From positions 16,079 through 80,078 of the forward strand of contig NZ_FOGL01000007.1 in the NCBI RefSeq assembly GCF_900111195.1: a stretch of 64,000 nucleotides of DNA. The letters run 5' to 3'. The notes under the pieces are model-generated. The model was not told where the DNA came from. It saw nothing but the letters and a program-made list of their open reading frames with translations, and searched no databases. The DNA comes from Gracilibacillus ureilyticus. GTDB taxonomy: Bacteria > Bacillota > Bacilli > Bacillales > Amphibacillaceae. The position numbers and the translations under genes were made by a program. How positions within the stretch are numbered: position 1 is the stretch's first letter; every line of letters starts with the position of its first letter. Positions 12,108 through 63,290 of the stretch are shown in pieces.

Positions 12108-12764
12108 ATGAAAATCCGTTTGGAAGTAAAATATCGTACAACGAATGGAGTAGTAACAGAATTTCAATCATCGGAAATGAGTCTGGAAAACAGTATAGCT
12201 GTTGCGGAAGACTTAATGAAACTAAACCGGTTAGCGGACATCCAAATGACCGATTCATATAACAGCAGCTGGACATTAAAAGAACTAAAGAAGTACCTGG
12301 AATCATTGGAGGAAGAACCACATGATATACATATGTATTTTGATGGTGGTTTTGATCGTAAAACAATGAAATCAGGTCTTGGTTGCAGTATATACTATAA
12401 ACAAAACGGGAAAAATTACCGAATAAGGAAAAACGCTCTGGTGAGTGAACTGGGTACAAATAATGAAGCAGAATATGCGGCATTGCATTTTGGCCTGAAG
12501 CAGCTGGAAGAGATGGGTGTCCATCACATGCCTGTCAAGGTCCATGGGGATTCCAAAGTAGTTATCAATCAGTTGACAGATGAATGGCCCTGTTTAGAAG
12601 ATACATTATTTGAATGGATGCAGAGGATCGAGAAATTGATAGATAAATTAGGTTTGGAGCCTGAATACCATGCCGTTTCAAGAAAAAAGAATCAGGAAAC
12701 AGATCAATTAGCAACACAAGCGTTACAACAAATTGAAATAGATAGCAGGAAAGAAGTGGAATGA
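12108..12764 (+). CDS. RNase H-like protein (reverse-transcriptase-like, YpeP type)
   Basis: 218 residues. After an N-terminal domain of about 75 residues comes a type-I RNase H fold with all four acidic positions visible: YFDGGF, TNNEAEYAAL, HGDSKVVINQ and the final Asp in NQETDQLA. This predicts metal-dependent cleavage of RNA in RNA/DNA hybrids. The small N-terminal domain resembles the lead domain of B. subtilis YpeP-like proteins. Monocistronic, between two terminators. Whether it acts in vivo on hybrids is not known to me. Confidence 0.8.
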   Translation: MKIRLEVKYRTTNGVVTEFQSSEMSLENSIAVAEDLMKLNRLADIQMTDSYNSSWTLKELKKYLESLEEEPHDIHMYFDGGFDRKTMKSGLGCSIYYKQNGKNYRIRKNALVSELGTNNEAEYAALHFGLKQLEEMGVHHMPVKVHGDSKVVINQLTDEWPCLEDTLFEWMQRIEKLIDKLGLEPEYHAVSRKKNQETDQLATQALQQIEIDSRKEVE

Positions 12765-12796
12765 CAAAACAGGAGAGTCTGCGGGACATCAGCCGG

Positions 12797-12831
12797 GGGC
12801 GAAACCCTTTCACAGCCGGGTTTCGCCCTTT
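12797..12831 (+). terminator. Terminator after the RNase H-like gene
   Basis: GGGCGAAACCC (12797-12807) and GGGTTTCGCCC (12818-12828) form a perfect 11-bp GC-rich stem, followed by TTTCCC. Confidence 0.75.
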
Positions 12832-12836
12832 CCCAA

Positions 12837-13643
12837 TTACTTCAATACAACTTCATTAATGATTTTCATCTCTTCATGATCAAGCATGTTCTTACCAACT
12901 ACTTTAGTTACTTTTTTATTCATATTTTCTTTTAAATCATTTACTTCCTCTTTATCCCCAACTAGATAAATGTTTTCCCAATTTAAGCCTTTTGCAAACC
13001 GGTCCAGTGTAGAGGCAAGACTTTTATACCAGCGATATCTGTTCGCATCGAATCGCTCTTTGAATTGGTCTGGCTGTGAGTTTCTTCCACCAGGTCCTAA
13101 TGAAGCTTGTCCGCGCGGTGGCCCGGCGTATTCCCGCCAGTCTTCAGTTTCTATATCAAATTCGAATACATGGGAATCCTTTAATGATCCTAATTCCGTA
13201 TCGAGAACTTTGACAGCTTCCTTTTGAGTAAGAATAATCCCTGATTTCGGGAATGTATCGTACATTTCCTTCAGCTGGTCTGTGTGTGCAACATCATCCC
13301 ATTCGAATACTGTCTTTACTGGTAATTGGAACTTCTCCGCAAACCAGATAGATCCATCTCCTGTAGCAAAAATGACTACACTTTTTGCCAAACTCTGTTC
13401 ATTTTCTTTTATATACTTTTCAACTTTCTCTTTAACTGCCCAAAAATTCCTTTTTTCATCAGAATCGCCATCTTCTTGTAAGTAACTTTCAAAATTTCGT
13501 AAGCCATTCTTTAGATGAATTTTCCATTCTCCACCTTGTTGTTCAGGATCAGCACGGTCTGTATTCAAATACATCGTAAAGATTCGATTCGGTTTTCCTA
13601 ATCGAACATTTTCCAACTTCTTTATTTCTTCGTGAAGGTTCAT
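12837..13643 (-). CDS. Bacterial archaeo-eukaryotic release factor 1-like protein (VLRF1/aeRF1-type)
   Basis: 268 residues when started at the ATG at 13643, which has AGGAGTAGTGCGTTA upstream; longer in-frame extension has no ribosome site. The mixed alpha/beta sequence with NRIFTMYLNTDR near the start, a central KSVVIFATGDGSIWFAEKFQLP and a C-terminal NIYLVGDKEEVNDLKENM fits the baeRF/VLRF1 proteins that resemble eRF1 domains 2-3 and Vms1 and are proposed to act on peptidyl-tRNA at stalled ribosomes. A Gly-rich loop, GPGGRNSQ, lies about residue 188. Identification is from memory of the family pattern. Confidence 0.6.
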   Translation of the reverse strand: MNLHEEIKKLENVRLGKPNRIFTMYLNTDRADPEQQGGEWKIHLKNGLRNFESYLQEDGDSDEKRNFWAVKEKVEKYIKENEQSLAKSVVIFATGDGSIWFAEKFQLPVKTVFEWDDVAHTDQLKEMYDTFPKSGIILTQKEAVKVLDTELGSLKDSHVFEFDIETEDWREYAGPPRGQASLGPGGRNSQPDQFKERFDANRYRWYKSLASTLDRFAKGLNWENIYLVGDKEEVNDLKENMNKKVTKVVGKNMLDHEEMKIINEVVLK

Positions 13644-13846
13644 TAACGCACTACTCCTTTTTAAATAATTTTGCTTACATTTTACTTGTAACCGGAAAGC
13701 ACGGGAGTGAAACCTAAATAACTGCAAATGTTTATATTAACTGATACAGAGAATTACGGAAATATTCGAAATAAAATTCAGTATTTTTGTATATGACAAA
13801 GATATATACAAAAGATAGAAAAGATAAGAAATGGAGGTGTCAATTT

Positions 13847-14278
13847 TTGAATCATATAAAATTAATGATGGTAAAATTTCTGCTCAGTTTAGTGTTACTT
13901 TTTATTATCTTAGGAATGGGGTTTGATGTATCATTCGGAAATGTATTTCTTATCACTCTTGTACTGGGGGTTGTCTCATACTTTATTGGTGATAGGATAA
14001 TTTTGCCTAGAACAAACAATATGGTAGCTACATTATCCGACTTCATACTCTCATTTGCTGTTATTTATTTGATGACAGATGCACTGACAGTAGGTGATGG
14101 TGTGCTTCAGGCGGCTTTTATTTCATCTTTAGGAGTTGCTTTGTTTGAATACTTCTTCCATAAATATGTTGCAGCTAATAATAAGGAAGAAGATGAAAGG
14201 ATCTCTGTAGACACTCGACAACTAAATATGGAATCTTCTGAAGAGATTTACCCATATGAAGAAGATAAAAAAGAGTAG
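13847..14278 (+). CDS. DUF2512 (YndM-like) small membrane protein
   Basis: 143 residues starting at TTG 13847, 7 nt after GGAGGTG; an upstream in-frame ATG has no ribosome site. Four hydrophobic segments fill residues about 5-110 and the C-terminus is acidic and hydrophilic, as in the YndM/DUF2512 family of unknown function. It ends 11 nt before the Mn-catalase start and is likely co-transcribed with it. Confidence 0.75.
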   Translation: MNHIKLMMVKFLLSLVLLFIILGMGFDVSFGNVFLITLVLGVVSYFIGDRIILPRTNNMVATLSDFILSFAVIYLMTDALTVGDGVLQAAFISSLGVALFEYFFHKYVAANNKEEDERISVDTRQLNMESSEEIYPYEEDKKE

Positions 14279-14289
14279 GAGGTTGGAAC

Positions 14290-15177
14290 ATGTTTTATCA
14301 TGTGAAAGAATTGCAATATAATGCAAAGCCTGCAGCCCCTGATCCTGTTTATGCCAAAAAACTGCAGGAGATATTAGGTGGGCAATTTGGTGAAATGTCT
14401 GTTATGATGCAATACTTATTTCAAGGCTGGAATTGCCGTGCTGAAAGTAAATACCGGGACATGATTCTGGATATTGCGACAGAAGAAATTGCTCACGTGG
14501 AAATGATTGCCACAATGATCGCTCAGCTGCTTGACGGAGCTCCTGCAAATGACCAGGAAGAGGCAGCTAAAAATCCCGCAGTAGAAGCGGTGCTAGGTGG
14601 AATGAATCCTCAGCATGCTATCGTTAACGGGTTAGGAGCACAACCGAACGACAGTGTCGGTTACCCATGGACAGCTAGATACACTATAGCAAGTGGTAAC
14701 TTGTTAGCAGATTTCCGCGCAAATTTAAACGCGGAGTCTCAGGGACGCTTACAGGTATGCAGGCTTTATGAAATGACGACAGACACAGGTGTAAGGGATA
14801 TGCTTTCATTTTTAATTGCCAGAGATACAATGCATCAGAATCAATGGATGGCAGCGATTGAAGAGCTTGAACAAACACAGGGAGCAATTGTACCTAGCTC
14901 ATTTAATCAGGAATATGAAAAACAGGAAGTTTCCTATTCTTTTATGAACTTTTCTGCAGGTGAAGAAAGCAGTACAGGAAGATGGGCAAACGGTCAGACA
15001 TATGATGGACAAGCAAATTTCGAATATGTACAGAGTCCTCAGGCAATGGGGCAGAAACCAGCTTTACAGCCAGCACCACCCTATATTCATGGAACACCAC
15101 CATTGGATTTAAGAAAAGCACAAGGTGCAGGAAAGCTGGAACCAAATACTAATCAAAACCAACAAGGATTCCATTAA
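14290..15177 (+). CDS. Manganese catalase
   Basis: 295 residues, matching non-haem di-manganese catalases such as B. subtilis YdbD/CotJC relatives. Metal-ligand helices visible are GQFGEMSVMMQYLFQGW (Glu), TEEIAHVEMIATMIAQ (Glu and His) and FLIARDTMHQNQWMAAIEEL (His and Glu). It converts hydrogen peroxide to water and oxygen. The C-terminal tail, from about residue 200, is Gly/Pro/Gln-rich and probably extended. Preceded by AGGAGGTTGGAAC and followed by a perfect terminator. Confidence 0.92.
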   Translation: MFYHVKELQYNAKPAAPDPVYAKKLQEILGGQFGEMSVMMQYLFQGWNCRAESKYRDMILDIATEEIAHVEMIATMIAQLLDGAPANDQEEAAKNPAVEAVLGGMNPQHAIVNGLGAQPNDSVGYPWTARYTIASGNLLADFRANLNAESQGRLQVCRLYEMTTDTGVRDMLSFLIARDTMHQNQWMAAIEELEQTQGAIVPSSFNQEYEKQEVSYSFMNFSAGEESSTGRWANGQTYDGQANFEYVQSPQAMGQKPALQPAPPYIHGTPPLDLRKAQGAGKLEPNTNQNQQGFH

Positions 15178-15204
15178 AAAAAACCACCAATTGGTGGTTT
15201 TTTT
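15176..15204. terminator. Bidirectional terminator, Mn catalase / APC permease
   Basis: AAACCACCAA (15181-15190) and TTGGTGGTTT (15191-15200) are exact complements with an A-run before and a T-run after, serving the two convergent genes. Confidence 0.88.
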
Positions 15205-15221
15205 GATTGGGGTCCGAATTT

Positions 15222-16574
15222 TTAAGCTTCTTTTTTCTTATTCCATCTTCTGTTCATCCAGACAGTGATAGCGCCAATAACAGCGATCAGCAGCAGACTA
15301 ATCCAGAAACCGGGACGGACACTTTTTTCCATTAAAGTACCTGAAACAGCAGCAGCAATAAGTACTAAACCAATTATTGATACTGCTTTCTGAAGCAGGC
15401 GGGGCTTCTCTAATACTTTTAAAGAGGAGATGATGATAAAAGCCCAATTATAAAGAAGCAATATCCCGGCAGCTGTTGTTATATATTCATATATCTTTTC
15501 AGGCAAAAGTAAAGCTGTGATAACAGATACAGATAAACCGCCTGTTGCAAGCAATAATGAAGGCAGAGGTAATTCCTTCCACCTTTTTATCTTTTTAGAA
15601 AAGACCTTTGGTGCATCCTCATCTTTCGCTAATGTTACAAGCAGTGTAACCACCCCGAACAGTGCAGCAGTCATTGTAGAAAAACCGGCGATGATAATTG
15701 CCCCATTAAAAACATGAGGGAAAAAGGCTAATTTATAGTCAGCTAATGCTGTAACAAATGGACTTTCTTTCTGATCAAACGCACCAACAGACACCATAGC
15801 CACCGCTAGTCCGAGGGATAAAATATAAATGAATGTGAGTAAAGAAAGCATAATCTTCCCAGCTTTTGGGGCATCTTCCTTGTTTTTTAAACGGATGGTC
15901 ATAAGGCCAATGACTTCTATACCCCCAAACGCATAAAAGGCATAGATTAGGGAAGCCCAGAATCCTCTAAATCCTTCAGTGAAAAACTTATCTGCAGAAT
16001 CCGGAAGTCCGGGTTTTTCGTCAGGACCACCCGGAATCCAGCCAATTAAGGCAATAATGGCTAGAACGATAAACATAAAAATAGCTGCTGTTTTAATAAT
16101 AGCGAACAAGTCTTCCACTTTATCAAAACCCTTTGTCCCTAACAGAATGACTGAAATAGAAAGCAAGGAATAAATAGCGGCAAAGACCCATAATGGCAAG
16201 TCAGGAAACCAGAGCCGGGTTAGAATTGATAATGCAATAAGCTGGCTACCCATAATAAGAATACTGGAACACCAGTAATTCCACCCACAGCTGAAACCCG
16301 CCCATTTCCCGTAAGCTTTTTCTGCATAGTAACAGAAAGATCCTTCCTGAGGATCCTTTGCGGACATTTTTGCGAGTAAATTAAATACAATATAGGTCCC
16401 AGTGGCGGCAAGTAAAAATGATAAAACAATTGATGGTCCAGTGAGACTTATCCCGATGCTGGAACCGAGAAAATATCCTGTACCGATCGTACAGCCGACA
16501 CCGGTTAATGCTAATTGCCACCATTTCATGTCACCTTCATTAGGGGAAGGCTTCTTCCTGGTTGCTGAACTCAT
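15222..16574 (-). CDS. APC-superfamily amino-acid permease
   Basis: 450 residues with about twelve membrane helices. The unwound first helix reads GVGCTIGTGYFLGSSIG, the amino-acid binding loop of the family, and helix 6 reads YAFYAFGGIEVIGL. It probably imports an amino acid by proton symport; the specificity cannot be read. The ATG is preceded by AAGGAGA with 6-nt spacing. It lies alone, convergent with Mn catalase and 60 nt downstream of the LysE-like gene on the same strand. Confidence 0.88.
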   Translation of the reverse strand: MSSATRKKPSPNEGDMKWWQLALTGVGCTIGTGYFLGSSIGISLTGPSIVLSFLLAATGTYIVFNLLAKMSAKDPQEGSFCYYAEKAYGKWAGFSCGWNYWCSSILIMGSQLIALSILTRLWFPDLPLWVFAAIYSLLSISVILLGTKGFDKVEDLFAIIKTAAIFMFIVLAIIALIGWIPGGPDEKPGLPDSADKFFTEGFRGFWASLIYAFYAFGGIEVIGLMTIRLKNKEDAPKAGKIMLSLLTFIYILSLGLAVAMVSVGAFDQKESPFVTALADYKLAFFPHVFNGAIIIAGFSTMTAALFGVVTLLVTLAKDEDAPKVFSKKIKRWKELPLPSLLLATGGLSVSVITALLLPEKIYEYITTAAGILLLYNWAFIIISSLKVLEKPRLLQKAVSIIGLVLIAAAVSGTLMEKSVRPGFWISLLLIAVIGAITVWMNRRWNKKKEA

Positions 16575-16634
16575 GATTATTCTCCTTCTTAGCTGTAATT
16601 AATCATTATAGTATGTCCCCAGTAAGGCAGCTTA

Positions 16635-17261
16635 TTAAGAAAATAATAATTGAAAAGCCTGGTAACCAAAATACACAGCAAATCCGATCAGTGAAATACC
16701 TGTAGTAACAGAAATAACTTTTAATGTTCGATTTGTTAGAAAATGACGGAAACCGCTTGAGACAAGAGCCATGGTGAAATCCCAGATAATTAAACCAAGG
16801 ATGATGGCGAACGTGTACAGTAATAAGTGTAAATGATCATACTTATTTATTGTGTTAGCTAATACAGAGCCATAAATCCCTAACCAGAATAAAATGGATA
16901 ATGGATTACTTATCGTAATCAGAAATCCTGAAGTAAAGGTTTTTAGCAGGCTGTCTTTTTCACGGTCATGGTTCATCTCGATTTTTTGTGAGCTATAAAT
17001 ACTTTCGATACCTGTGTAAAACAGTACAAATGCACCGAAGGACCATAAAAAAGTTTTCACAAATGGAGTTTCTAAGAAATGAACCAGTCCCAGAAATACT
17101 GCAAGAATAAAGAACATTTCTGCAAAAAGTGCCCCTATGGCAATTGTCCAGGAATGGAGAAAACCGTTTTTAATTCCTTGATTTATTTGAGCTGCATTCA
17201 ATGGCCCAATTGGTGCAGCTAAAGACAAACCGAGGAAAATATAACTGAGAAAAATTGCCAA
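16635..17261 (-). CDS. LysE-family amino-acid exporter
   Basis: 208 residues with six hydrophobic segments. The LysE/RhtB N-terminal signature is FLGLSLAAPIGPLNAAQINQGIKNG (read as two adjoining parts, LAAPIGPLNA and QINQGIKNG). The middle NPLSILFWLGIYG also matches. Predicted export of amino acids or analogues. Start is TTG at 17261, 7 nt after GGAGAGGTGG. Confidence 0.85.
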   Translation of the reverse strand: MAIFLSYIFLGLSLAAPIGPLNAAQINQGIKNGFLHSWTIAIGALFAEMFFILAVFLGLVHFLETPFVKTFLWSFGAFVLFYTGIESIYSSQKIEMNHDREKDSLLKTFTSGFLITISNPLSILFWLGIYGSVLANTINKYDHLHLLLYTFAIILGLIIWDFTMALVSSGFRHFLTNRTLKVISVTTGISLIGFAVYFGYQAFQLLFS

Positions 17262-48913: not shown

Positions 48914-50452
48914 TTGGAAGTAAATAATGAAATGATTTTAGTACTCGATTTTGGAAGTCAATACAACCAGTTAATAACTCGCCGAATTCGTGAGTTTGGT
49001 GTATACAGTGAACTGCATTCTCATCGATTAACTGTGGAAGAAATTAAGGAAATGAATCCAAAAGGCATCATATTATCTGGAGGACCACATAGTGTGTATG
49101 GTGAAAACAGCTTTCGATGTGATGAGCGAATTTTTGATCTAGATATTCCGGTACTTGGAATTTGTTACGGAATGCAATTAATGACACACCACTTTGGCGG
49201 AGTAGTGGAACGGGCCAATGAACGTGAATATGGCAGAGCTCAAATAAATGTGAAAGAAGGAGCTGTGCTGTTTGAAGGGACACCTCAGGATCAAATTGTG
49301 TGGATGAGCCATAGTGATAAAATTTTGGAAGCACCTGAAGGTTTCCAGATAGAAGCAACAAGTTCATCTACACCCGTAGCTGCAATGAGCAATCCGGAGA
49401 AACAGTTTTATGGCGTACAATTCCACCCGGAGGTACGAAATTCAGAATATGGTAATGACTTACTTAAAACATTCGTTTTTCAGGTTAGCAAATGCTCTGG
49501 TGATTGGACGATGGCAAACTTTATAGATATGGAAATAGATAAAATCAGAGAACAAGTTGGTGACCGTAATGTTCTTTGTGCATTAAGCGGTGGTGTAGAT
49601 TCATCTGTTGTAGCTGCATTAATTCATAAAGCAATCGGTGATCAGTTAACATGTATCTTCGTTGATCACGGTTTGCTTCGTAAGGATGAAGCAGATACTG
49701 TAATGGAAACATTCCGTGATGAATTTAAGATGAATATTATTAAAGTGGATGCACAAGAGCGATTTATGAGCAAATTAAAAGGTGTTTCAGATCCTGAACA
49801 AAAGCGTAAGATTATTGGGAATGAATTTATTTATGTGTTTGATGATGAAGCAGCAAAGCTTGAAAACATGGACTTCCTTGCACAAGGTACATTATATACA
49901 GACATCGTAGAAAGTGGTACAGAAACAGCACAGACAATAAAGTCACACCACAATGTTGGCGGGTTGCCTGAAGATATGGAATTCAAACTTATTGAGCCAT
50001 TAAATACTTTATTTAAAGATGAGGTGCGAGCGCTTGGTACAGAGCTTGGCTTACCTGATGAAATTGTATGGCGACAACCATTTCCTGGCCCAGGTCTGGG
50101 TATTCGGGTACTTGGTGAGATAACACCGGAAAAAGTGGAAATCGTTCGTGAATCTGATGCAATCCTGCGTGAAGAGATCCAAAAAGCAGGTTTGGATCGT
50201 GACATCTGGCAATATTTCACTGTATTACCCGATATCCGGAGTGTAGGGGTGATGGGTGATGCGAGGACATATGATTACGCAATTGGAATCAGAGCAGTTA
50301 CTTCCATTGACGGAATGACATCTGACTGGGCTAGAATCCCTTGGGATGTACTGGAGAAAATCTCTGTACGCATTGTTAATGAAGTGGATCATATTAACCG
50401 TGTCCTGTATGATGTAACAAGTAAGCCACCTGCAACAATAGAGTGGGAATAG
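48914..50452 (+). CDS. guaA: GMP synthase (glutamine-hydrolysing)
   Basis: 512 residues. The class-I amidotransferase domain has the nucleophile in GICYGMQLM and the His/Glu pair in FHPEV. The ATP pyrophosphatase P-loop is [15 protein letters not shown] and the dimerisation domain ends with PPATIEWE. It makes GMP from XMP. Start is TTG at 48914, 9 nt after AAAGGAG, which gives an N-terminus of the B. subtilis length. The last four codons are supplied by the 13-bp integration site of the downstream element, so the protein is unaffected. Controlled by the guanine riboswitch. Confidence 0.97.
50439..50451. other. attL core of the integrated element
   Basis: TAGAGTGGGAATA, identical to 63278-63290, spans the last guaA codons (Ile-Glu-Trp-Glu) and two bases of the stop. 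The 3' end of guaA is a well-known integration site for genomic islands. Confidence 0.88.
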
Positions 50453-50508: not shown

Positions 50509-51720
50509 TCATTGCATTGTTATTGCATTATTTGTTTTTAATCCTTTACGTAGGTAACGAGCAGTGAATTGATTCTTGGGTGAAGTATCTTCATTTTCTG
50601 TTGCTGTTTGGTAAGACATAATACCCTCTAATTTATGGGCTACTTCAAAATTACTGTTAGGATACAAATGTCCGTAAGTGCCTAGTGTCGTTTCAATATC
50701 TTCATGCCCTAAGCGGTCTTTAATGATTAATGGGTTTTCTCCCATACTGATGAGCAGGGAAGCATGAGAATGTCTTAAAGCATGTAATCTAATTCGATGA
50801 ACGCTAGCTTTTTTGGAATAACGTGTAATAGCATGTGATAATGTATGCTTTTGTGTTGGAATGCCATTATAGCTCATCACAAAATTGGTTTGAACGACAG
50901 ATTGTTGCACGTCCTTCCATTCGCCGAGTAAAGTTAATGTATCCCCATCTAATGCAATATGACGAACGCTAGCTTTTGTTTTCGGTTCTACAAAAGAATA
51001 GTTTTCTAAATTCTTATAGTAGAGTGTTTTATCAATAGATAACACACCAGCGTCAAAGTCAATGTCTTCCCATTGAATTGCCGTGGCTTCTCCAATCCGC
51101 ATACCTGTCATAAATAAAAACCATAACGAAATAAATAAAAAATGTTGATAGTAATCTTCCTTATAAAAAAGAGAGATGACTTTTTCAAACTCTTCTTTGG
51201 TCCAAAAATCTATTTTTGTCTTTGTCTTTTTCACATTTCCAACAATTTTAGATGGATTACTTTCAGCTAAACCTAAAACAACCGCTCGATCCATCGCCAT
51301 GGAAAATAAACCTTGAACATTTCTAATATAAGAAGAACGATACTTCTTTTTTGATAATGCTAATTGCCATTTTTGCACATGAATCGGGGTAATTTCAGTA
51401 GTGATTAAACTATTAAAAAAAGTGAAATGTTTTCTTACGGTCGGTAATCGATTTTCGTACGTTCTTTCTTTTACTTGTGTTTTATACCAAGGTAAGAAAA
51501 TATCTTCAATAAACTGTTGGAACAGAATGTCATCTTGCTTTTCTTCTAATTCATCTGATTTTGTAAGCAGTAACCTCGAATATTCTTCCCTTGCTTCTTT
51601 TTTAGTTTTAAACCCACTACGGTACTTCTGAATTTGCTTGCCAGTGATTGGGTGATACCCTAAATTAGCACGAAAATAATATGTTCCGTTCTTTGCTTTT
51701 TTGACGATATCTTTAGTCAT
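50509..51720 (-). CDS. int: Tyrosine recombinase integrase of the element
   Basis: 403 residues from the ATG at 51720 (AAGGAGTGAAATC). An N-terminal AP2-like arm-binding region (YYFRANLGYHPITGKQIQK), a SAM-like core-binding domain, then the catalytic domain with Arg in TGMRIGEATA, HALRHSH (H-x-x-R), LGHEDIETT (His) and Tyr in LGTYGHLY: the full R-H-R-H-Y set. It is of the Tn916/ICE type and is expected to recombine the 13-bp core at guaA. All catalytic residues are present, so it may be active. Confidence 0.94.
   Translation of the reverse strand: MTKDIVKKAKNGTYYFRANLGYHPITGKQIQKYRSGFKTKKEAREEYSRLLLTKSDELEEKQDDILFQQFIEDIFLPWYKTQVKERTYENRLPTVRKHFTFFNSLITTEITPIHVQKWQLALSKKKYRSSYIRNVQGLFSMAMDRAVVLGLAESNPSKIVGNVKKTKTKIDFWTKEEFEKVISLFYKEDYYQHFLFISLWFLFMTGMRIGEATAIQWEDIDFDAGVLSIDKTLYYKNLENYSFVEPKTKASVRHIALDGDTLTLLGEWKDVQQSVVQTNFVMSYNGIPTQKHTLSHAITRYSKKASVHRIRLHALRHSHASLLISMGENPLIIKDRLGHEDIETTLGTYGHLYPNSNFEVAHKLEGIMSYQTATENEDTSPKNQFTARYLRKGLKTNNAITMQ
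50511..50532. repeat. Putative integrase arm sites, left end
   Basis: ATTGCATT-GTT-ATTGCATTATT, two direct 8-mers at 11-bp spacing. The same block with AAA in place of GTT lies at 63167-63188 near the right end. It is embedded in the last codons of the integrase gene. Confidence 0.65.
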
Positions 51721-51758
51721 GATTTCACTCCTTACGCAATTAGTGCAAGAAGTACAAA

Positions 51759-51944
51759 TCACACATCTAAAGTTATCCCTAATACTTCCTCAACAGCTTC
51801 TTTAGGAACACGATCTAACTTCTTTGATTGATAATACGTGTGTCCTTTTGATATCATTAGCTTTTTACATTCCTTAATGATATCAGCTGAAAAAGAAGGA
51901 CCATAACCTAGTGCTACCAAGTCTTTTTTAGTCACTGTGACCAT
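51759..51944 (-). CDS. DUF3173-family small protein beside the integrase (possible excisionase)
   Basis: 61 residues: TKKDLVALGYGPSFSADIIK, then HTYYQSKKLDRVPKEAVEEV. This matches the DUF3173 proteins that occur immediately upstream of Firmicute ICE integrases. A winged-helix-like DNA-binding fold and an excisionase role are suggested by position only. GGAAAGGAGTTCAT before the ATG; 38 nt before int. Confidence 0.75.
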   Translation of the reverse strand: MVTVTKKDLVALGYGPSFSADIIKECKKLMISKGHTYYQSKKLDRVPKEAVEEVLGITLDV

Positions 51945-53570: not shown

Positions 53571-54473
53571 TCATACTTTATTAAAAACCTTTACATATTC
53601 CATCCAGTCTGAATCACTGAAAACATTAAATACTATTTTTTCAAATTTATTGGGATGGGTCAATAACCAGTGATTTACAGTAGATATTGCTATGTTGGCT
53701 GCTTCTTTTTTAGGAAAACCAAATACGCCAGTTGAAATAGCACAGAATGCAATACTCTTAATATTTCCCATTTTTTGAGCTAATTCCAAACACTTTATAT
53801 AACAAGAAGCTAATTCACTTTTTTGTTTGTCAGTTAAAGGTGTTCCTTGTGGGACAATCGGTCCAACAGTGTGTAAAACATAGCGAGATGGTAAATTGTA
53901 AGCTCTCGTTATCTTAGCATGTCCAGTATTCTCTAATTCCTTTTGTATAGACATAATTGTTTCACAATCATTCCTTAATTGTGGTCCAGCGGCTGAATGA
54001 ATTGCATTATCAATGCAAGCATGCAAGGGCTGAAAGCAACCTAACATTTGATTATTTGCTGCATTAACAATTGCGTCCGTGTTTAATTGCGTGATATCCC
54101 CTTGCCATAAATAAAAATTATCACTATTAGAATAGGAACAATTGGGAAACATGGTTGCTATTGATTCTAGTTTCTCTATCTTAACGATTCCTTTATTTTT
54201 TAATTCTATTTGTAATAATGTATCTATCTTCTTAATTAATTGATCAGTTAATGGTTTTGGTTCTCTAATATTTAATAATGATCTTAATAAATTGCGTTTT
54301 TCATTATAAGTGTCAGGAAGTCTTACTTCTGCTGGTGCATTAGGCTCTTGTAATAACATATTTATTAAATCGTCAACAATATGTTCAGTACTATTTTGTA
54401 ATGTTTTATTAGGCAGAAACTTTTCATTTAACTGAATGGATGAAGAATAATCCTCTAATTGGATTTGCGACAT
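53571..54473 (-). CDS. Zinc-type macrodomain protein-ADP-ribose hydrolase
   Basis: 300 residues. A helical N-terminal extension (about 1-115) precedes a macrodomain with DAIVNAANNQMLGC (ADP-ribose-binding Asn motif), FQPLHACIDNAIHSAAG and the phosphate loop AISTGVFGFPKKEAA. The C-x-P-x-H-x-C set within GCFQPLHACID is the zinc site of the Zn-Macro class that removes ADP-ribose from protein side chains. It lies 13 nt after the SirTM gene in the same operon, the combination in which a class M sirtuin writes and the macrodomain erases the mark. Confidence 0.88.
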   Translation of the reverse strand: MSQIQLEDYSSSIQLNEKFLPNKTLQNSTEHIVDDLINMLLQEPNAPAEVRLPDTYNEKRNLLRSLLNIREPKPLTDQLIKKIDTLLQIELKNKGIVKIEKLESIATMFPNCSYSNSDNFYLWQGDITQLNTDAIVNAANNQMLGCFQPLHACIDNAIHSAAGPQLRNDCETIMSIQKELENTGHAKITRAYNLPSRYVLHTVGPIVPQGTPLTDKQKSELASCYIKCLELAQKMGNIKSIAFCAISTGVFGFPKKEAANIAISTVNHWLLTHPNKFEKIVFNVFSDSDWMEYVKVFNKV

Positions 54474-54486
54474 TTATACAACCCCC

Positions 54487-55332
54487 TTATGTCATAATTG
54501 CAGAGACAATATCCTGTATATCTTGCATAAATACAATTGTTTTATCCTTATTTTCTTTTATACCAACTGGATGCGCTCTGTTAAATCGTATTAATGTTGC
54601 ATGATTATTTTGGTACGTCATTTGTTCAAATGGATAACGAATGATTCCAGGCGTATTAAACCCAACCCCCATTTCGAGAAAAGCTATTTTCTTGCCCTCG
54701 GTATTCTGTAGAAACTGATTGTATAATTGATGTGACTGATACCATTCTTCGTTTTGTACAAAGTTCTCATTGATTCTTAAATGTGGATCCATATTTCCAC
54801 CACAAATAGGGCATTTGGGGACTAGGTTTGAAGGTATTTTACAATCCTCTGTTTGATCAATCATTTCTCTTACCAATGTTTCATTATAATAAACGTTATC
54901 ATGGCATCTCTTCGCGCACTGTAGGTAACCATAATTACCCTGAACCTCAAACACTTTCTCATTAGGAAAACCAGACTTTTCAAACTGACTATCGACATTG
55001 GTAGTAATGACAAAGTATTCTTTTTCCTTCACTAGTTGGAATAGATCCTTGTAAAGGTTAGTTGCACCAAGTTCAAACCTGTTTACATAAATGTGTTTAG
55101 CCCAGTACGCCCACCGTTCCTCCTGTGTGGGAAAAGGGTAAAAACCGGAGGAATACATGTCAGTCAATCCATATTTTTTTATAAAAGGACTAAAGTTCTC
55201 AGTAAATCTTTTCCCGCTGTATTCAACCCCTGCAGCAGAAGATAGTCCAGATCCACCGCCTATTATTATATATTCCGCATTCTTTATAGCCAACTTAGCT
55301 TCCTTTATATTTGTCTTTAAAGTTTTATTCAT
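54487..55332 (-). CDS. Class M sirtuin (SirTM), predicted protein ADP-ribosyltransferase
   Basis: 281 residues. The NAD-binding GGGSGLSSAAGVEYSG opens a Rossmann fold; TTNVDSQFEKSGF and FEVQGNYGYLQC follow. Where deacetylase sirtuins have the catalytic His (HGN), this has Gln (QGN), the hallmark of SirTM enzymes that transfer ADP-ribose. Zinc cysteines lie in QCAKRC and CPICGG. In Staphylococcus and Streptococcus, SirTM modifies a lipoylated GcvH-like protein encoded next to it; neither GcvH-L nor a lipoate ligase is present here. First gene of the two-gene operon. Confidence 0.9.
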   Translation of the reverse strand: MNKTLKTNIKEAKLAIKNAEYIIIGGGSGLSSAAGVEYSGKRFTENFSPFIKKYGLTDMYSSGFYPFPTQEERWAYWAKHIYVNRFELGATNLYKDLFQLVKEKEYFVITTNVDSQFEKSGFPNEKVFEVQGNYGYLQCAKRCHDNVYYNETLVREMIDQTEDCKIPSNLVPKCPICGGNMDPHLRINENFVQNEEWYQSHQLYNQFLQNTEGKKIAFLEMGVGFNTPGIIRYPFEQMTYQNNHATLIRFNRAHPVGIKENKDKTIVFMQDIQDIVSAIMT

Positions 55333-55395
55333 AAATTCATCACCTGTATTAGAAATATTGAGAATAAAAATATGATGACCAAATTACTAGATAGA

Positions 55396-55432
55396 AAAAT
55401 GCCATTAGCATACGCACTAACGGCATTTTCAA
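55396..55432. terminator. Terminator between the oxidoreductase gene and SirTM
   Basis: AAAATGCC (55396-55403) pairs with GGCATTTT (55422-55429), with TTAG/CTAA pairing inside. Read on the minus strand a T-run follows, ending the oxidoreductase gene. Confidence 0.75.
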
Positions 55433-55447
55433 TTTTTTTACTACAGA

Positions 55448-56086
55448 TTATTCTGCTTCACCAACAACTGTAAATCGTTCATTTATATGTTGTGGATTTT
55501 CAATTTCATCCAATACAGCAATAGCATAATCAGCATAGCTTATATAGCTTTCACCTTTTGAGTTAACTAGAAGGTTATCTTTTCCTGATTGATACGAGCC
55601 AGTTCTTTTTCCGTCAGCATCGAATACTGCGGAAGGACTAATAAATGTCCATGTAATGTTTGAGGTTTCTTGTAGTTCTTGTAAGTTTCTTCCTTGACCT
55701 TTAGCAGTTGGAATAAATACGTCTGGAAATTCAGGTGTATCTATTAATGGAATTGTTTTATCCTCATCAACATAGAGACTTCCAGCTCCACCTACAATAA
55801 TTGCTCTTGTATCTGTTCCTTTTAATGCTTCAATTAAAGCATGTCCAGCGTCAACGTGAGGCTGTTCTTCACCTAAAGGAGCACCAAAGGCATTTACAAC
55901 TACATCAAATTCTTTCACATCATTCGATGTTAAATCTAAAATGTTTTTTTCAACAACAGAAATATTTTTTTCTCCTAACTTTGAAGCATCTCTTACAATT
56001 GCAGTTACTTCATGTCCACGATTAACTGCCTCTTTTAAAATAAGACTTCCAGCTTTACCACTTGCTCCAATAATACCTACTTTCAT
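55448..56086 (-). CDS. NAD(P)-binding oxidoreductase (YwnB/NmrA-like)
   Basis: 212 residues. N-terminal GIIGASGKAGSLILKEAVNR is the nucleotide-binding glycine loop (G-x-x-G-x-x-G) of atypical short-chain dehydrogenases; VVNAFGAP, IIVGGAGSLYVD and SPSAVFDADGKRTG follow the YwnB-like pattern. The substrate is unknown. It is divergent from an Rrf2 regulator, as ywnA-ywnB in B. subtilis, and two operator palindromes lie right before its start. GGAGGAGATAAA ribosome site. Confidence 0.88.
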   Translation of the reverse strand: MKVGIIGASGKAGSLILKEAVNRGHEVTAIVRDASKLGEKNISVVEKNILDLTSNDVKEFDVVVNAFGAPLGEEQPHVDAGHALIEALKGTDTRAIIVGGAGSLYVDEDKTIPLIDTPEFPDVFIPTAKGQGRNLQELQETSNITWTFISPSAVFDADGKRTGSYQSGKDNLLVNSKGESYISYADYAIAVLDEIENPQHINERFTVVGEAE

Positions 56087-56110: not shown

Positions 56111-56146
56111 GTAACCATCAAGGTTACATGTAACTATCATAGTTAC
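56111..56146. promoter_or_regulatory. Two Rrf2-type operators before the oxidoreductase gene
   Basis: GTAACCATCAAGGTTAC (56111-56127) and GTAACTATCATAGTTAC (56130-56146) share the form GTAAC-N7-GTTAC with starts 19 bp apart. A third, slightly weaker copy lies before the regulator gene. Confidence 0.82.
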
Positions 56147-56210
56147 AATTGTAGTTTTTGTCAACACTTAAGATTTTTAAGTGAATAATCAAATTGGAAC
56201 AAACATAATT

Positions 56211-56227
56211 GTAATCATACAGGTTAC
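56211..56227. promoter_or_regulatory. Third Rrf2-type operator, before the regulator gene
   Basis: GTAATCATACAGGTTAC matches the GTAAC-N7-GTTAC form with one mismatch and lies 48 bp before the Rrf2 start, as expected for autorepression. Confidence 0.75.
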
Positions 56228-56274
56228 AAGTGTGTTATAATTATGTTGATAGAATTAATTGAAAAGGTGATAGA

Positions 56275-56709
56275 ATGTCCATTAGTAGTAGGTTTTCGGT
56301 AGCTATTCATATATTAGCGCTTCTTGAGATAAATAAAGAAGGGGTTTGCACGTCGGAGTACTTAGCTGGGAGTATCAATACAAATCCAGTTGTTGTTAGA
56401 AAAATAGTAGGTATGTTAAAAAAGGCAAATTTGGTAGAAGTACGCCCAGGGATTGCAGGAACGGAACTTGTAAAAGAGTTATCTGAAGTTACACTATTTG
56501 ACGTCTATAAAGCAGTGAATGTTGTAAATGAAAAAGAGCTGTTTTCTATTCATGATAATCCAAATCCTGAATGTCCTGTAGGTAGAAATATCCAAGATAC
56601 AATTGAACCATTTTTTATAGCGGCGCAAGTAGCGATGGAAGAGGTATTAAAAAGTCATACTTTAAAAAATATTGTGCAAGACATCGTAACTAAAGAAGAG
56701 ATGTATTGA
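56275..56709 (+). CDS. Rrf2-family transcriptional regulator (YwnA-like)
   Basis: 144 residues. HTH: SSRFSVAIHILALLEINKE, CTSEYLAGSINTNPVVVRKI and a wing LVEVRPGIAGTEL. There is only one cysteine beyond the HTH (PECPVG, about residue 102), so no three-Cys iron-sulfur site; YwnA-type members sense by other means. Probably represses itself and the divergent oxidoreductase gene. Start after AAAAGGTGATAGA. Confidence 0.9.
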   Translation: MSISSRFSVAIHILALLEINKEGVCTSEYLAGSINTNPVVVRKIVGMLKKANLVEVRPGIAGTELVKELSEVTLFDVYKAVNVVNEKELFSIHDNPNPECPVGRNIQDTIEPFFIAAQVAMEEVLKSHTLKNIVQDIVTKEEMY

Positions 56710-60483: not shown

Positions 60484-62118
60484 CTATTTTACGCTTACCA
60501 TTGAGGTATTATTTGAGTAGTCAAATTCATCTAAATTTGTATTGTATTCAAATGGATAACATGCTTTAAAGCTATTTTTCTTCTTATTACCATTTTCATT
60601 TTTCTTTCTTCGCATTGGGTCTAAATCAGTAATACAAGAAATTTTACGATCAATAGTCCCTTTATTATTGCTATCAAATAAATGTAAGAAATGTTCGAAA
60701 TATCTCCCGCCTACATTTATTACCGCGACATGATGCTTTTCTAAAGGTTTATTTAAGTAGTCCGCAAATACATATAATAATAATTGTTCAGCTATTCCTT
60801 CAACAAATATTATTTTTTCTGCAAACAACATGTTTGATTTAGTAGCATCTAAGAAACGTTGCACGTATTTCTTACTTTTAATCTTATTTTCACCAAAAAC
60901 TTTTCCTGGATAACTAACATTTCTTTTATTATTATTTGTATATAGGCAAATAATATCATCAAGATCTGTTGCTGATGAGATATGTGTCGAATGAGAGGTT
61001 ATGAATATCTGTTTTACCTTTCTATTATTAATGTTATTTTTTAAGAATTTAATGAATTCATTTTGCATAGTAGGATGTAAATGTGCTTCTGGTTCTTCAA
61101 TAGCTAATATAGGAAACACTTTCGCATTACTACCTAAGAATTTTCCATCAGAATCCACCTGCATTTTGGCCAGTAATAAAGCCATAAAAATTAAATTGTT
61201 ATAACCTAACCCATTATGAGTTATTGGTATTGTCAATCCCGTTTCTTGCTTAACTATTAATTGCAACACAGAATAAATTTCACTTTCAGTAATATTGCCT
61301 TCAAAATCTGGTGTTGATTTATCGTAAGACGCACCAATCCCATCTGTATAAGATAGAATTTCTTTATTTCCACTATCTAATCTTTCTTGAATTGTTTTGA
61401 TCAGCTCATGTGAGTTGGTAGAAAAAATATCTTTTCTTTCTTGTAGTTTCCTTTTCTGTTCTTCTTCTGTAATACTTTTGTCAGACTTTATATCGTAATC
61501 TATAAAAAAGTCTATTACATTTTTTAATAAAGTGTTTTTTCCACTAAACATATCCCGTTCTACATCTCGTATTGCATCTAAAAACTGAAAGTCAAATTTA
61601 TTTATACTATCATTGTCTACAGGGGATTGATTTTCTGGATTACCTACCCAAGTTTTATTAATGTATAACCTAATAAATTGACTTCTAATTATATTCCATA
61701 TTTCTTCCGTAGAGCGTGCCTTGCTTACTATATTAATATAGTTCTTTTCTTCGGAAATTGGTAAGAAGAATTCATATTGTATCTTAGCTTCATAAGGCTC
61801 TTTTAGTCTGGTTAACCAGTTGCTTACTGTGACTAATTCATCTGTCATCAAATTTTCATTTTCTGACTGCGTTATACGAACTGAAATTACTATCTTTGGA
61901 GATTCCCTTTTTAAAGATTCTATTGTTAAGGAGTTGTTAAAATCTTCTACGGATAGTTGTTTTCTGACTGAGCTATCAAATATTATAGCCAAAGCGCGCA
62001 ATAAATTTGATTTACCAGAATTATTGTGACCGATTAATACATTGATACCCTCATGAAATTCGACATTAATATTATCGAAACTCCTAAAGTTTTTAATTTC
62101 GATTCCAGAAATATACAT
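60484..62118 (-). pseudogene. OLD-family ATPase/Toprim nuclease, 3' end cut off by IS66
   Basis: 544 codons. The N-terminal ABC-type ATPase has Walker A GHNNSGKSNLLRAL (about 32-45), Walker B FPILAIEEPEAHLHPTMQ and ITSHSTHI. The Toprim domain begins with IIFVEGIAEQLLLYVF and TDLDPMRRKK. The last codons (GTA-AGC-GTA-AAA-TAG) are the IS66 inverted repeat itself, so the true C-terminus is missing. OLD nucleases such as GajA act in phage defence; the partner gene that would follow has been lost, so the system cannot be named. GGAGGAATAAA before the ATG. Confidence 0.88.
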
Positions 62119-62366: not shown

Positions 62367-63083
62367 ATGTTTAAAACTAAGGGAGATAGACTGGAATCAT
62401 TGATTCAATACGTTTATCAAGTACTATCAGATTCTGCTAATAAAGATATTGAAGTCAAGAACAAGCACAATATAGTTGGTAAATCAGGTGTAATACATAA
62501 TATAGATGTCTATTACCAATTTGAGCTAAATGGTATCACTCATAAAGTAATATTTGAGTGCAAGAATTGGAATAGTAAAGTCTCCAAAGAAAAAGTATTA
62601 GCTTTAAAATCAATTTTAGAAGATATTCCTAATTCAGTAGGTGTAATGGTAGCCCCTAAAGGCTATCAAAGTGGAGCCAATAAGTTTGCTGAACATCACG
62701 GAATCGAATTGATTTCTGGAAGTGAAGAGTCTTTACTTGCCGCAGTAATTCAGAAGCGCTTACAGGTGGTGCTACCTGACGAATCAGTCATTGGTGAACC
62801 TTTTTATTGCTTAATGGAAAAAGGAGATAGTGGACAGGTAACTGGTACATATATTCGAAATATAGATGTAAATGGTAAGCCGTTTTTGATTTTATATTTT
62901 TCTAAAAAAGAAGCAGAAGAGAGTGGTACAAATTTTAATTCGGTCGTTAGAGGTATAGATAAAAAACATCTTACAATACTATGTGATTATAGCGACAACT
63001 TAGGGTTAAATTTAGCTATAAAACAATTCATGAGTGATGTACTTGGAGTAGAATCTAAACTTATAAGAGACTTTTTTCTTTAA
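62367..63083 (+). CDS. Mrr-like restriction endonuclease-fold protein
   Basis: 238 residues. The Mrr_cat fold spans about 5-130: GDRLESLIQYVYQVLSDS, Asp in NIDVYYQFEL, catalytic VIFECKNWNSKVSKEKV (E-x-K) and a final GVMVAPKGYQSGANKFAE helix. A C-terminal domain of about 100 residues is not recognised. Predicted to cleave DNA, perhaps modified DNA as Mrr does. Divergent from the OLD gene across a 248-bp gap, and last gene before the right end of the element; together they look like a defence locus. AAGGAGTTAAATT before the ATG. Confidence 0.85.
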   Translation: MFKTKGDRLESLIQYVYQVLSDSANKDIEVKNKHNIVGKSGVIHNIDVYYQFELNGITHKVIFECKNWNSKVSKEKVLALKSILEDIPNSVGVMVAPKGYQSGANKFAEHHGIELISGSEESLLAAVIQKRLQVVLPDESVIGEPFYCLMEKGDSGQVTGTYIRNIDVNGKPFLILYFSKKEAEESGTNFNSVVRGIDKKHLTILCDYSDNLGLNLAIKQFMSDVLGVESKLIRDFFL

Positions 63084-63277: not shown

Positions 63278-63290
63278 TAGAGTGGGAATA
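63278..63290. other. attR core of the integrated element
   Basis: TAGAGTGGGAATA, identical to attL. It is followed by ATTAGAGG, so the uninterrupted gene would have ended GAG-TGG-GAA-TAA. The present guaA stop TAG comes from the element. Confidence 0.88.

Follow-up and report, generated by a model that had tools for sequence, protein, structure and literature searches.

Lone pairs of a class M sirtuin (SirTM) and a zinc macrodomain are already described (PMC4518038, PMC11490716). According to the text of PMC11490716, from 2024, no SirTM target other than GcvH-L is known, MorMacro, a macrodomain from a lone pair, failed to remove the modification from GcvH-L, and the target of the lone pairs is called unknown. 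The text of PMC9218516 describes SifR of Streptococcus pneumoniae, a relative of YwnA, as a monothiol quinone sensor that acts via the matching cysteine; its operator, TGTAA-N9-TTACA, resembles the one used by HypR, a sensor of HOCl, and the quinone reductase YwnB belongs to its regulon. Here we analyse a SirTM/macrodomain pair from Gracilibacillus ureilyticus within 64,000 nucleotides of contig NZ_FOGL01000007.1 (positions 16,079 to 80,078 of the forward strand); this whole stretch is referred to as the window. The pair is part of a larger unit in which an rrf2 gene is divergent from ywnB, sirTM and the macrodomain gene, in that order. We propose, at a probability of roughly 0.6, that the four genes form a self-contained module that would answer electrophile stress with quinone reduction and with the reversible ADP-ribosylation of a target whose gene lies outside the module, with sensing, activity and target read from relatives. 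The features of the unit are as follows (coordinates in the window, strand, feature and basis).

53571..54473, minus strand: zinc macrodomain, predicted ADP-ribosyl hydrolase (eraser), 300 amino acids; Pfam, NCBIfam, structure matches and zinc motif
54487..55332, minus strand: class M sirtuin SirTM, predicted ADP-ribosyltransferase (writer), 281 amino acids; structure match, tree and motifs
55395..55429, minus strand: attenuator- or terminator-like hairpin between the ywnB stop and the sirTM start; intergenic fold, z -2.9
55448..56086, minus strand: YwnB-like NAD(P)H quinone reductase (predicted); Pfam NAD_binding_10 and S. pneumoniae YwnB structure 4R01, 191 bits
56110..56128, unstranded: Rrf2-type operator O1, exact TGTAA-N9-TTACA; pattern search
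56129..56147, unstranded: Rrf2-type operator O2, exact, overlying the -10 of the promoter-like site; pattern search
56136..56164, minus strand: promoter-like site TTGACA-17-TATGAT for ywnB-sirTM-macro; consensus match only, 11 of 12
56210..56228, unstranded: Rrf2-type operator O3, exact, directly upstream of rrf2; pattern search
56275..56709, plus strand: YwnA/SifR-type Rrf2 regulator with a CPVG motif; Pfam Rrf2, 1YLF 156 bits, B. subtilis YwnA 1XD7 122 bits

An earlier, sequence-only reading of this DNA had recognised the pair, and both open reading frames (ORFs) lie on the minus strand where it had placed them; the boundary that it drew at 55332, however, left out YwnB, Rrf2 and the operators between them. 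The pair is genuine, with the signature residues of both enzymes intact, and the two genes are 13 bases apart. The 300-residue protein matches Pfam Macro (122 bits) and the NCBIfam model PRK04143 for protein-ADP-ribose hydrolase (330.9 bits, cut-off 272), and its closest solved structures are 8RSI-K, 8RSL and 5KIV. Residues 32-296 align to 8RSI, including the N-terminal part, where the three-helix bundle of zinc macrodomains would be expected, and the zinc motif GCFQPLHAC, with its first zinc-loop cysteine at position 146, aligns with 8RSI, 8RSL and 5KIV. The motif had been noted before with the spacing C-x-P-x-H-x-C, which is corrected here to C-x2-P-x-H-x-C. Net charge is -2 for the whole macrodomain protein in the window and in S. 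aureus, and 0 versus +3 for the macrodomain part, a measure too crude for the reported surface patch.

No Pfam model passed at E 0.01 for the 281-residue SirTM, whose closest solved relatives are the class M SirTM structures 5A3A-C (E 1.3e-50). The motif VQGNYG (Q131-G132-N133) agrees with the earlier description of a sirtuin carrying Gln for the catalytic His (QGN), and the Asn118 and Arg192 of class M (Spy numbering) are retained. A genome scan confirmed 156 relatives, of which 80 were retrieved as loci of 3.6-20.8 kb of DNA each (at least 15 kb in 41 of the 80); dereplication then took 84 loci to 66, with 18 dropped and the window among those kept. N112, Q131, G132 and R186 are invariant in 66/66 dereplicated loci, and the four structural cysteines are conserved in 54-55. 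The strict pattern of the macrodomain zinc motif is found near the pair in 46, several of the misses being contig ends. Based on the named relatives, the pair is predicted to add and remove protein ADP-ribose.

The genes, the CPV cysteine motif, the three operators and the hairpin can all be read from the DNA itself. The window contains three exact copies of TGTAA-N9-TTACA, against 0.11 expected in the window as a whole, and all three are in the 188-bp gap between rrf2 and ywnB. The promoter-like site over O2 is the highest-scoring in the scanned region. By motif alignment, the CPVG motif is common to the Rrf2 proteins of the window, L018, L019 and L097; a second cysteine, C25, is present in the window protein and has no counterpart in L018, L019, L097 or L096. 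The window Rrf2 is the only Rrf2 match in the host genome at E 1e-5.

Exact operators were then counted across the 66 dereplicated loci. Sixteen sites in nine loci lie within 2.5 kb of the pair, compared with three in the remaining 646 kb; for each of eight control patterns (reversed, with other spacers or with scrambled arms), 0-2 sites were counted near the pair and 0-2 farther away. Two of the three far sites (L048, L065) adjoin a YwnA-like rrf2. An operator lies upstream of SirTM in eight of the 65 loci other than the window, and all six loci of the window clade (the window, L015, L016, L018, L019 and L020) have it. In L044 it stands about 39 bases ahead of sirTM, and in L015, L016 and L044 it precedes the operon although no rrf2 lies within 3 kb. 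The Rrf2 protein is 68-71% identical across loci with different partners: YwnB in L019 and L097, an NmrA protein in L018 and a SnoaL-like protein in L182 and L184 (labelled by Pfam for L182). In L018 the Rrf2 is 68% identical and the NmrA protein 22% identical to YwnB; the YwnB of L015 is 86% identical to that of the window, above the 72% of its SirTM. A later search added seven loci. In two of these, L182 and L184, rrf2 is accompanied by two operators. A divergent HxlR gene is found in L186 and L188, the upstream gene is a MarR gene in L185 and a PadR-type gene in L183, and in L187 the tests made found no rrf2, operator, HxlR, MarR or PadR-type gene. In Paenibacillus sp. HW567 (L020, 7085-10840), an exact operator precedes a run of DsbA, FAD oxidoreductase, macrodomain and SirTM genes.

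A strong hairpin between the upstream gene and sirTM is found in the window, L015, L016, L018 and L019 (z -2.1 to -4.5) and in L097, which was folded without shuffles. The hairpin sequences are unlike one another except among near relatives. In L016, L019 and L097 about 20 bases separate the hairpin from the sirTM start, which leaves little room for a promoter, so that read-through of the hairpin seems to be needed.

The neighbours of the pair were compared with genes 5-8 kb away. Because shadow ORFs turn up among the neighbour clusters where genomes are GC-rich, counting was limited to families with a Pfam-checked seed, plus one 277-residue Bacteroidota family without a Pfam match (L029). The redox set consisted of NmrA/NAD_binding_10, MDR dehydrogenases of the quinone-oxidoreductase kind, PNPOx, nitroreductase, flavodoxin_2, OYE and LLM; the last two gave no near match, and the NmrA profile also catches MDR proteins. 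A redox enzyme lies within 1.5 kb of the pair in 30 of the 66 loci versus 8 of 57 at 5-8 kb, and redox ORFs make up 37/236 near and 10/262 at 5-8 kb (Fisher p 5e-6). Partner labels cluster on the tree yet change often, with 25 changes over all labels against 48.7 in shuffles. Two other families also recur near the SirTM/macrodomain genes. DUF1848-type proteins occur in or next to the operons at L023 10822-11751, L026 5094-6023, L035 1929-2867 and L037 (4/66 near, 0/57 at 5-8 kb), and SPASM radical-SAM-type genes are near the pair in L021, L024, L033, L062, L065 and L091 (6/66 near, 0/57 at 5-8 kb), four of which also have a nitroreductase.

These observations suggest the following mechanism. 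Reduced Rrf2 would repress transcription in both directions until a quinone or another thiol-reactive electrophile modifies its cysteine and so releases it from the DNA. Transcription of the operon would then start at the promoter that O2 overlies and supply abundant YwnB for quinone reduction, and leaky or regulated passage through the hairpin would yield less SirTM and macrodomain than YwnB. SirTM may next ADP-ribosylate at least one host protein whose gene lies elsewhere, a mark that the zinc macrodomain would strip once the stress ends. A broader and more tentative idea, which we consider possible but doubtful, is that lone SirTM/macrodomain pairs in general are an electrophile-triggered reversible ADP-ribosylation switch on a chromosomally encoded target, with sensor, reductase, writer and eraser travelling together as one horizontally mobile module.

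Several results weigh against the proposed module. No exact operator lies within 2.5 kb of the pair in 57 of the 66 loci, and no redox neighbour was found in 36 of them. The redox families were picked after the neighbours had been viewed, a choice that favours the enrichment, and the enrichment of HxlR and Rrf2 genes alone is not significant (9/236 vs 3/262, p 0.08). A second lone pair in the host genome (L007) lacks a hairpin (z +1.1), and its locus contains no operator. In L183, whose SirTM is 68% identical, the regulator is of the PadR type, and rrf2, operator and redox enzymes gave no match. The host genome as a whole has 13 exact operators versus 12 for the reversed control, and hence gives no genome-wide regulon signal. 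Finally, shuffled sequences gave more promoter-like sites than the real one (17.3 vs 11), and a simple terminator scan called no terminator in the window.

The cassette is carried by an element inserted at guaA (48914-50452). The features of this element outside the cassette are as follows.

50439..50451, unstranded: attL-like direct repeat TAGAGTGGGAATA at the 3' end of guaA; exact 13-bp repeat
50509..51762, minus strand: tyrosine integrase; Pfam Phage_integrase and Arm-DNA-bind_4
51759..51944, minus strand: DUF3173 small protein adjoining int; Pfam PF11372
52460..52714, minus strand: HTH_16 regulatory ORF; Pfam PF12645
52698..53333, minus strand: sigma-70 region-4-like ORF; Pfam PF08281
57098..58009, minus strand: TcpC, the sole remaining conjugation gene; Pfam PF12642
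58138..60446, plus strand: IS66 insertion sequence, three ORFs
60484..62118, minus strand: gajA-like gene; PADLOC GajA, 835 bits, model positions 1-539 of 687
62367..63083, plus strand: Mrr-type endonuclease-like protein; Pfam Mrr_cat
63278..63290, unstranded: attR-like direct repeat TAGAGTGGGAATA ahead of the next chromosomal gene; exact 13-bp repeat

The carrier is a decayed Tn916/Tn5801-like element, a remnant copy of 12.9 kb between the 13-bp repeats. Tn5801 inserts at the 3' end of guaA with 11-bp repeats, according to the text of PMC4844618. The likeness is drawn from the site, the repeats, TcpC, the regulatory ORFs and the integrase copies of the family rather than from the integrase of Tn5801 itself. 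The HTH_16 and sigma-like ORFs are presumably of the Tn916 type, and integrase copies 84-96% identical occur in eight other genomes of the family. No relaxase or coupling gene was found among the element ORFs scanned with Pfam, a scan that covered all but a few other ORFs shorter than 100 residues; IS66 may have caused the loss of the conjugation genes. The gajA-like gene (Gabija) is shorter than the GajA model and ends where IS66 begins, and there is no gajB-like ORF among the ORFs scanned.

In ten related elements from the family, seen in stretches of up to 20 kb, the int, DUF3173, HTH_16 and sigma-like genes are present in all ten, TcpC in eight and the guaA end in seven; SirTM, macrodomain, YwnB and Rrf2 are found in none. 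The gap between tcpC and the sigma-like gene is occupied by other genes in the related guaA elements L150 and L152. Since the pair lies in this same gap, its earlier placement in the cargo slot of a Tn916-type element holds, although the element has proved to be a remnant with TcpC alone of the conjugation genes. We take the tet(M) slot of Tn916 to be beside tcpC. The pair had also been described as lying beside nuclease-like genes, but the gajA-like and Mrr-type genes are 5-8 kb away. L150 carries cargo in a second gap as well: between its HTH_16 and DUF3173 genes (12457-17036) lie an ABC ATPase-like gene and genes for a histidine kinase and an FtsX-type permease, the latter two named by Pfam. 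A plasmid scan gave 39 records, the best at 66% (Niallia taxi megaplasmid) and 48% (Enterococcus casseliflavus).

No GcvH-L or LplA2 adjoins the window pair, as the sequence-only reading had said. Its further suggestion that this is remarkable is not supported by the published lone pairs (PMC4518038, PMC11490716) or by the related loci: the S. aureus GcvH-L and LplA2 matched in none of the 80, while the control L095 matched. Their absence beside the pair is thus not unusual. Beside the same loci, LLM matched in the S. aureus control L095 only, and there was no OYE within 3 kb. In the host genome, the GCV_H model, which does recognise S. aureus GcvH-L, has one match above its cut-off (a 128-residue open frame in a gcvH-like place) and a weak one below it; the GcvH present is canonical-looking, and three LplA/B-type proteins are also present. 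The surroundings of the passing match presumably correspond to those of gcvH in B. subtilis.

In the second lone pair of the host genome (L007), the SirTM is 64% and the macrodomain 54% identical to those of the window. That pair and L160 are adjoined by a zinc-type dehydrogenase (Pfam), which we take to be of the quinone-oxidoreductase kind. One weak match of the macrodomain of this second pair to Cas5b (E 0.0016) was taken as chance. At E 1e-20, a SirTM is found in one of 17 genomes of the genus, namely that of the host, and in 20 of 159 genomes of the family. By tblastn, 18 of the 22 family loci L098-L119 have GcvH-L, macrodomain and LplA2, and L098 is a lone pair. Genome G088 carries three tandem SirTM-like matches with long branches and without a macrodomain, GcvH-L or LplA2 match (L105, L118 and L119; contig C1 1165393-1168967), besides the extended operon L117. 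In the tree, the GcvH-linked SirTMs of the extended operons form one clade of 19 rows, S. aureus included, with support of 100/100, and the window SirTM lies outside it. The latter belongs to a six-row group (98/93) with the Neobacillus, Bacillus, Niallia and Paenibacillus loci L015, L016, L018, L019 and L020.

Other explanations of the locus differ mainly in what is modified. The pair might modify canonical lipoylated proteins, either the host GcvH or E2 lipoyl domains, and so be the usual lipoyl-linked system acting in trans. The canonical-looking GcvH and the three LplA/B-type proteins of the host would fit, as would the status of GcvH-L as sole known SirTM target (PMC11490716), but the failure of MorMacro on GcvH-L reported in the same text and the position of the window SirTM outside the GcvH-linked clade make this unlikely. 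A slightly less probable option is that SirTM acts on the product of the gene next to it, YwnB or its replacement, and thereby regulates a redox enzyme. The text of PMC4518038 shows extended operons encoding their own target, ywnB is adjacent to and co-directional with sirTM, and in L015 YwnB is better conserved than SirTM (86% vs 72%). Against this stands the variety of the upstream gene among SirTM relatives: an NmrA protein at 22% identity, a zinc-type quinone oxidoreductase, a SnoaL-like protein, an FMN protein, or DsbA plus DAO. This turnover disfavours the neighbour as an obligate target; because SirTM, macrodomain and operator are retained while genes of unrelated families replace one another at the upstream position, an operon neighbour is unlikely to be the target. 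Comparable odds attach to simple co-location, with SirTM and macrodomain as passengers of a ywnAB operon that serve an unrelated process. The hairpin does part ywnB from sirTM, and most loci lack the operator; however, the operator persists in loci that have lost ywnB or have another gene in its place (L016, L018, L044, L182, L184), and regulators of the HxlR or MarR type, as well as redox neighbours, accompany other lone pairs.

Two further alternatives draw on the mobile carrier, and both appear very improbable. One is anti-phage defence by ADP-ribosylation of a phage or host protein upon infection, for which the gajA-like and Mrr-type genes on the same carrier could speak. SirTM, macrodomain, YwnB and Rrf2 of the window had no match in PADLOC at E 0.01 (the neighbours at other loci lie outside that defence-library scan), the Pfam-named neighbour families elsewhere are redox, regulatory, cupin, radical-SAM and DUF1848, and the regulator is of the electrophile-sensor type. 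A pattern scan of viral contigs gave 30 pattern matches and no confirmed relative, and phage records yielded two partial matches besides one extended operon, that of S. aureus. The record with this operon, L095 (OR849908.1), is filed as a Staphylococcus phage and is apparently host DNA. The idea that the target might be a phage protein therefore finds little support, whereas its description as unknown stands and agrees with the text of PMC11490716. The other alternative follows DarTG-like logic, with SirTM as toxin and the macrodomain as antitoxin of an addiction pair. Adjacent writer and eraser genes on a mobile element would suit it, but the operator ahead of the operon is of a stress type, and 10 of 85 loci have no macrodomain match within 3 kb of SirTM (L047, L050 and L087 with long flanks), although divergent macrodomains could escape the search.

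If the proposed electrophile-responsive module is correct, operator and sensor class together suggest what switches on a poorly understood enzyme pair. They point to quinones or other thiol-reactive electrophiles as inducer, so that a search for the SirTM target can use the right condition. The module also suggests redox or electrophile stress as a theme common to lipoyl-linked and lone pairs. Among the open-licence papers searched, no published report of an rrf2-ywnB-sirTM-macro cassette was found; one paragraph of PMC12710355 mentions both the sirTM operon of S. aureus and regulators of thiol stress, with no operator link.

The regulatory half of the cassette corresponds to the SifR regulon of S. 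pneumoniae and ywnAB of B. subtilis, with the same CPV-cysteine Rrf2, YwnB and TGTAA-N9-TTACA operators (PMC9218516). The ADP-ribosylation genes set the window cassette apart: 'ADP-ribos', sirtuin and macrodomain are absent from the main text of that paper. The extended operon of S. aureus and S. pyogenes (GcvH-L, Macro, SirTM, LplA2, OYE and LLM) shares a homologous SirTM and zinc macrodomain and likewise has oxidoreductase neighbours; among the extended operons of the window's family (L189-L206), OYE matched in 18 of 18 fetched stretches and LLM in 14. These operons differ in having the lipoyl genes and the macrodomain gene ahead of sirTM, their SirTMs are 36-40% identical and form the separate clade, and no operator or Rrf2 match was found in the 18 stretches, which come to 173 kb and include 2.1-3.3 kb of upstream DNA each. 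Tn5801/Tn916-family integrative and conjugative elements share the guaA 3' site, short direct repeats, the integrase and the Tn916-type genes (PMC4844618), whereas the window element has lost the conjugation genes except TcpC, contains IS66 and carries a redox/ADP-ribosylation cassette as cargo. Also close is the lone SirTM/macrodomain pair of E. faecalis, T. pedis and the source of MorMacro (PMC4518038, PMC11490716), with the same two enzymes and signature residues and no GcvH-L or LplA2. The main texts of these two papers contain no quinone, Rrf2, HxlR or 'horizontal', with no Tn916 in PMC11490716 and no 'mobile' in PMC4518038; compared with the pairs that they describe, the window pair stands out as part of a cassette with rrf2, operators and ywnB, carried by a Tn916/Tn5801-like element at guaA.

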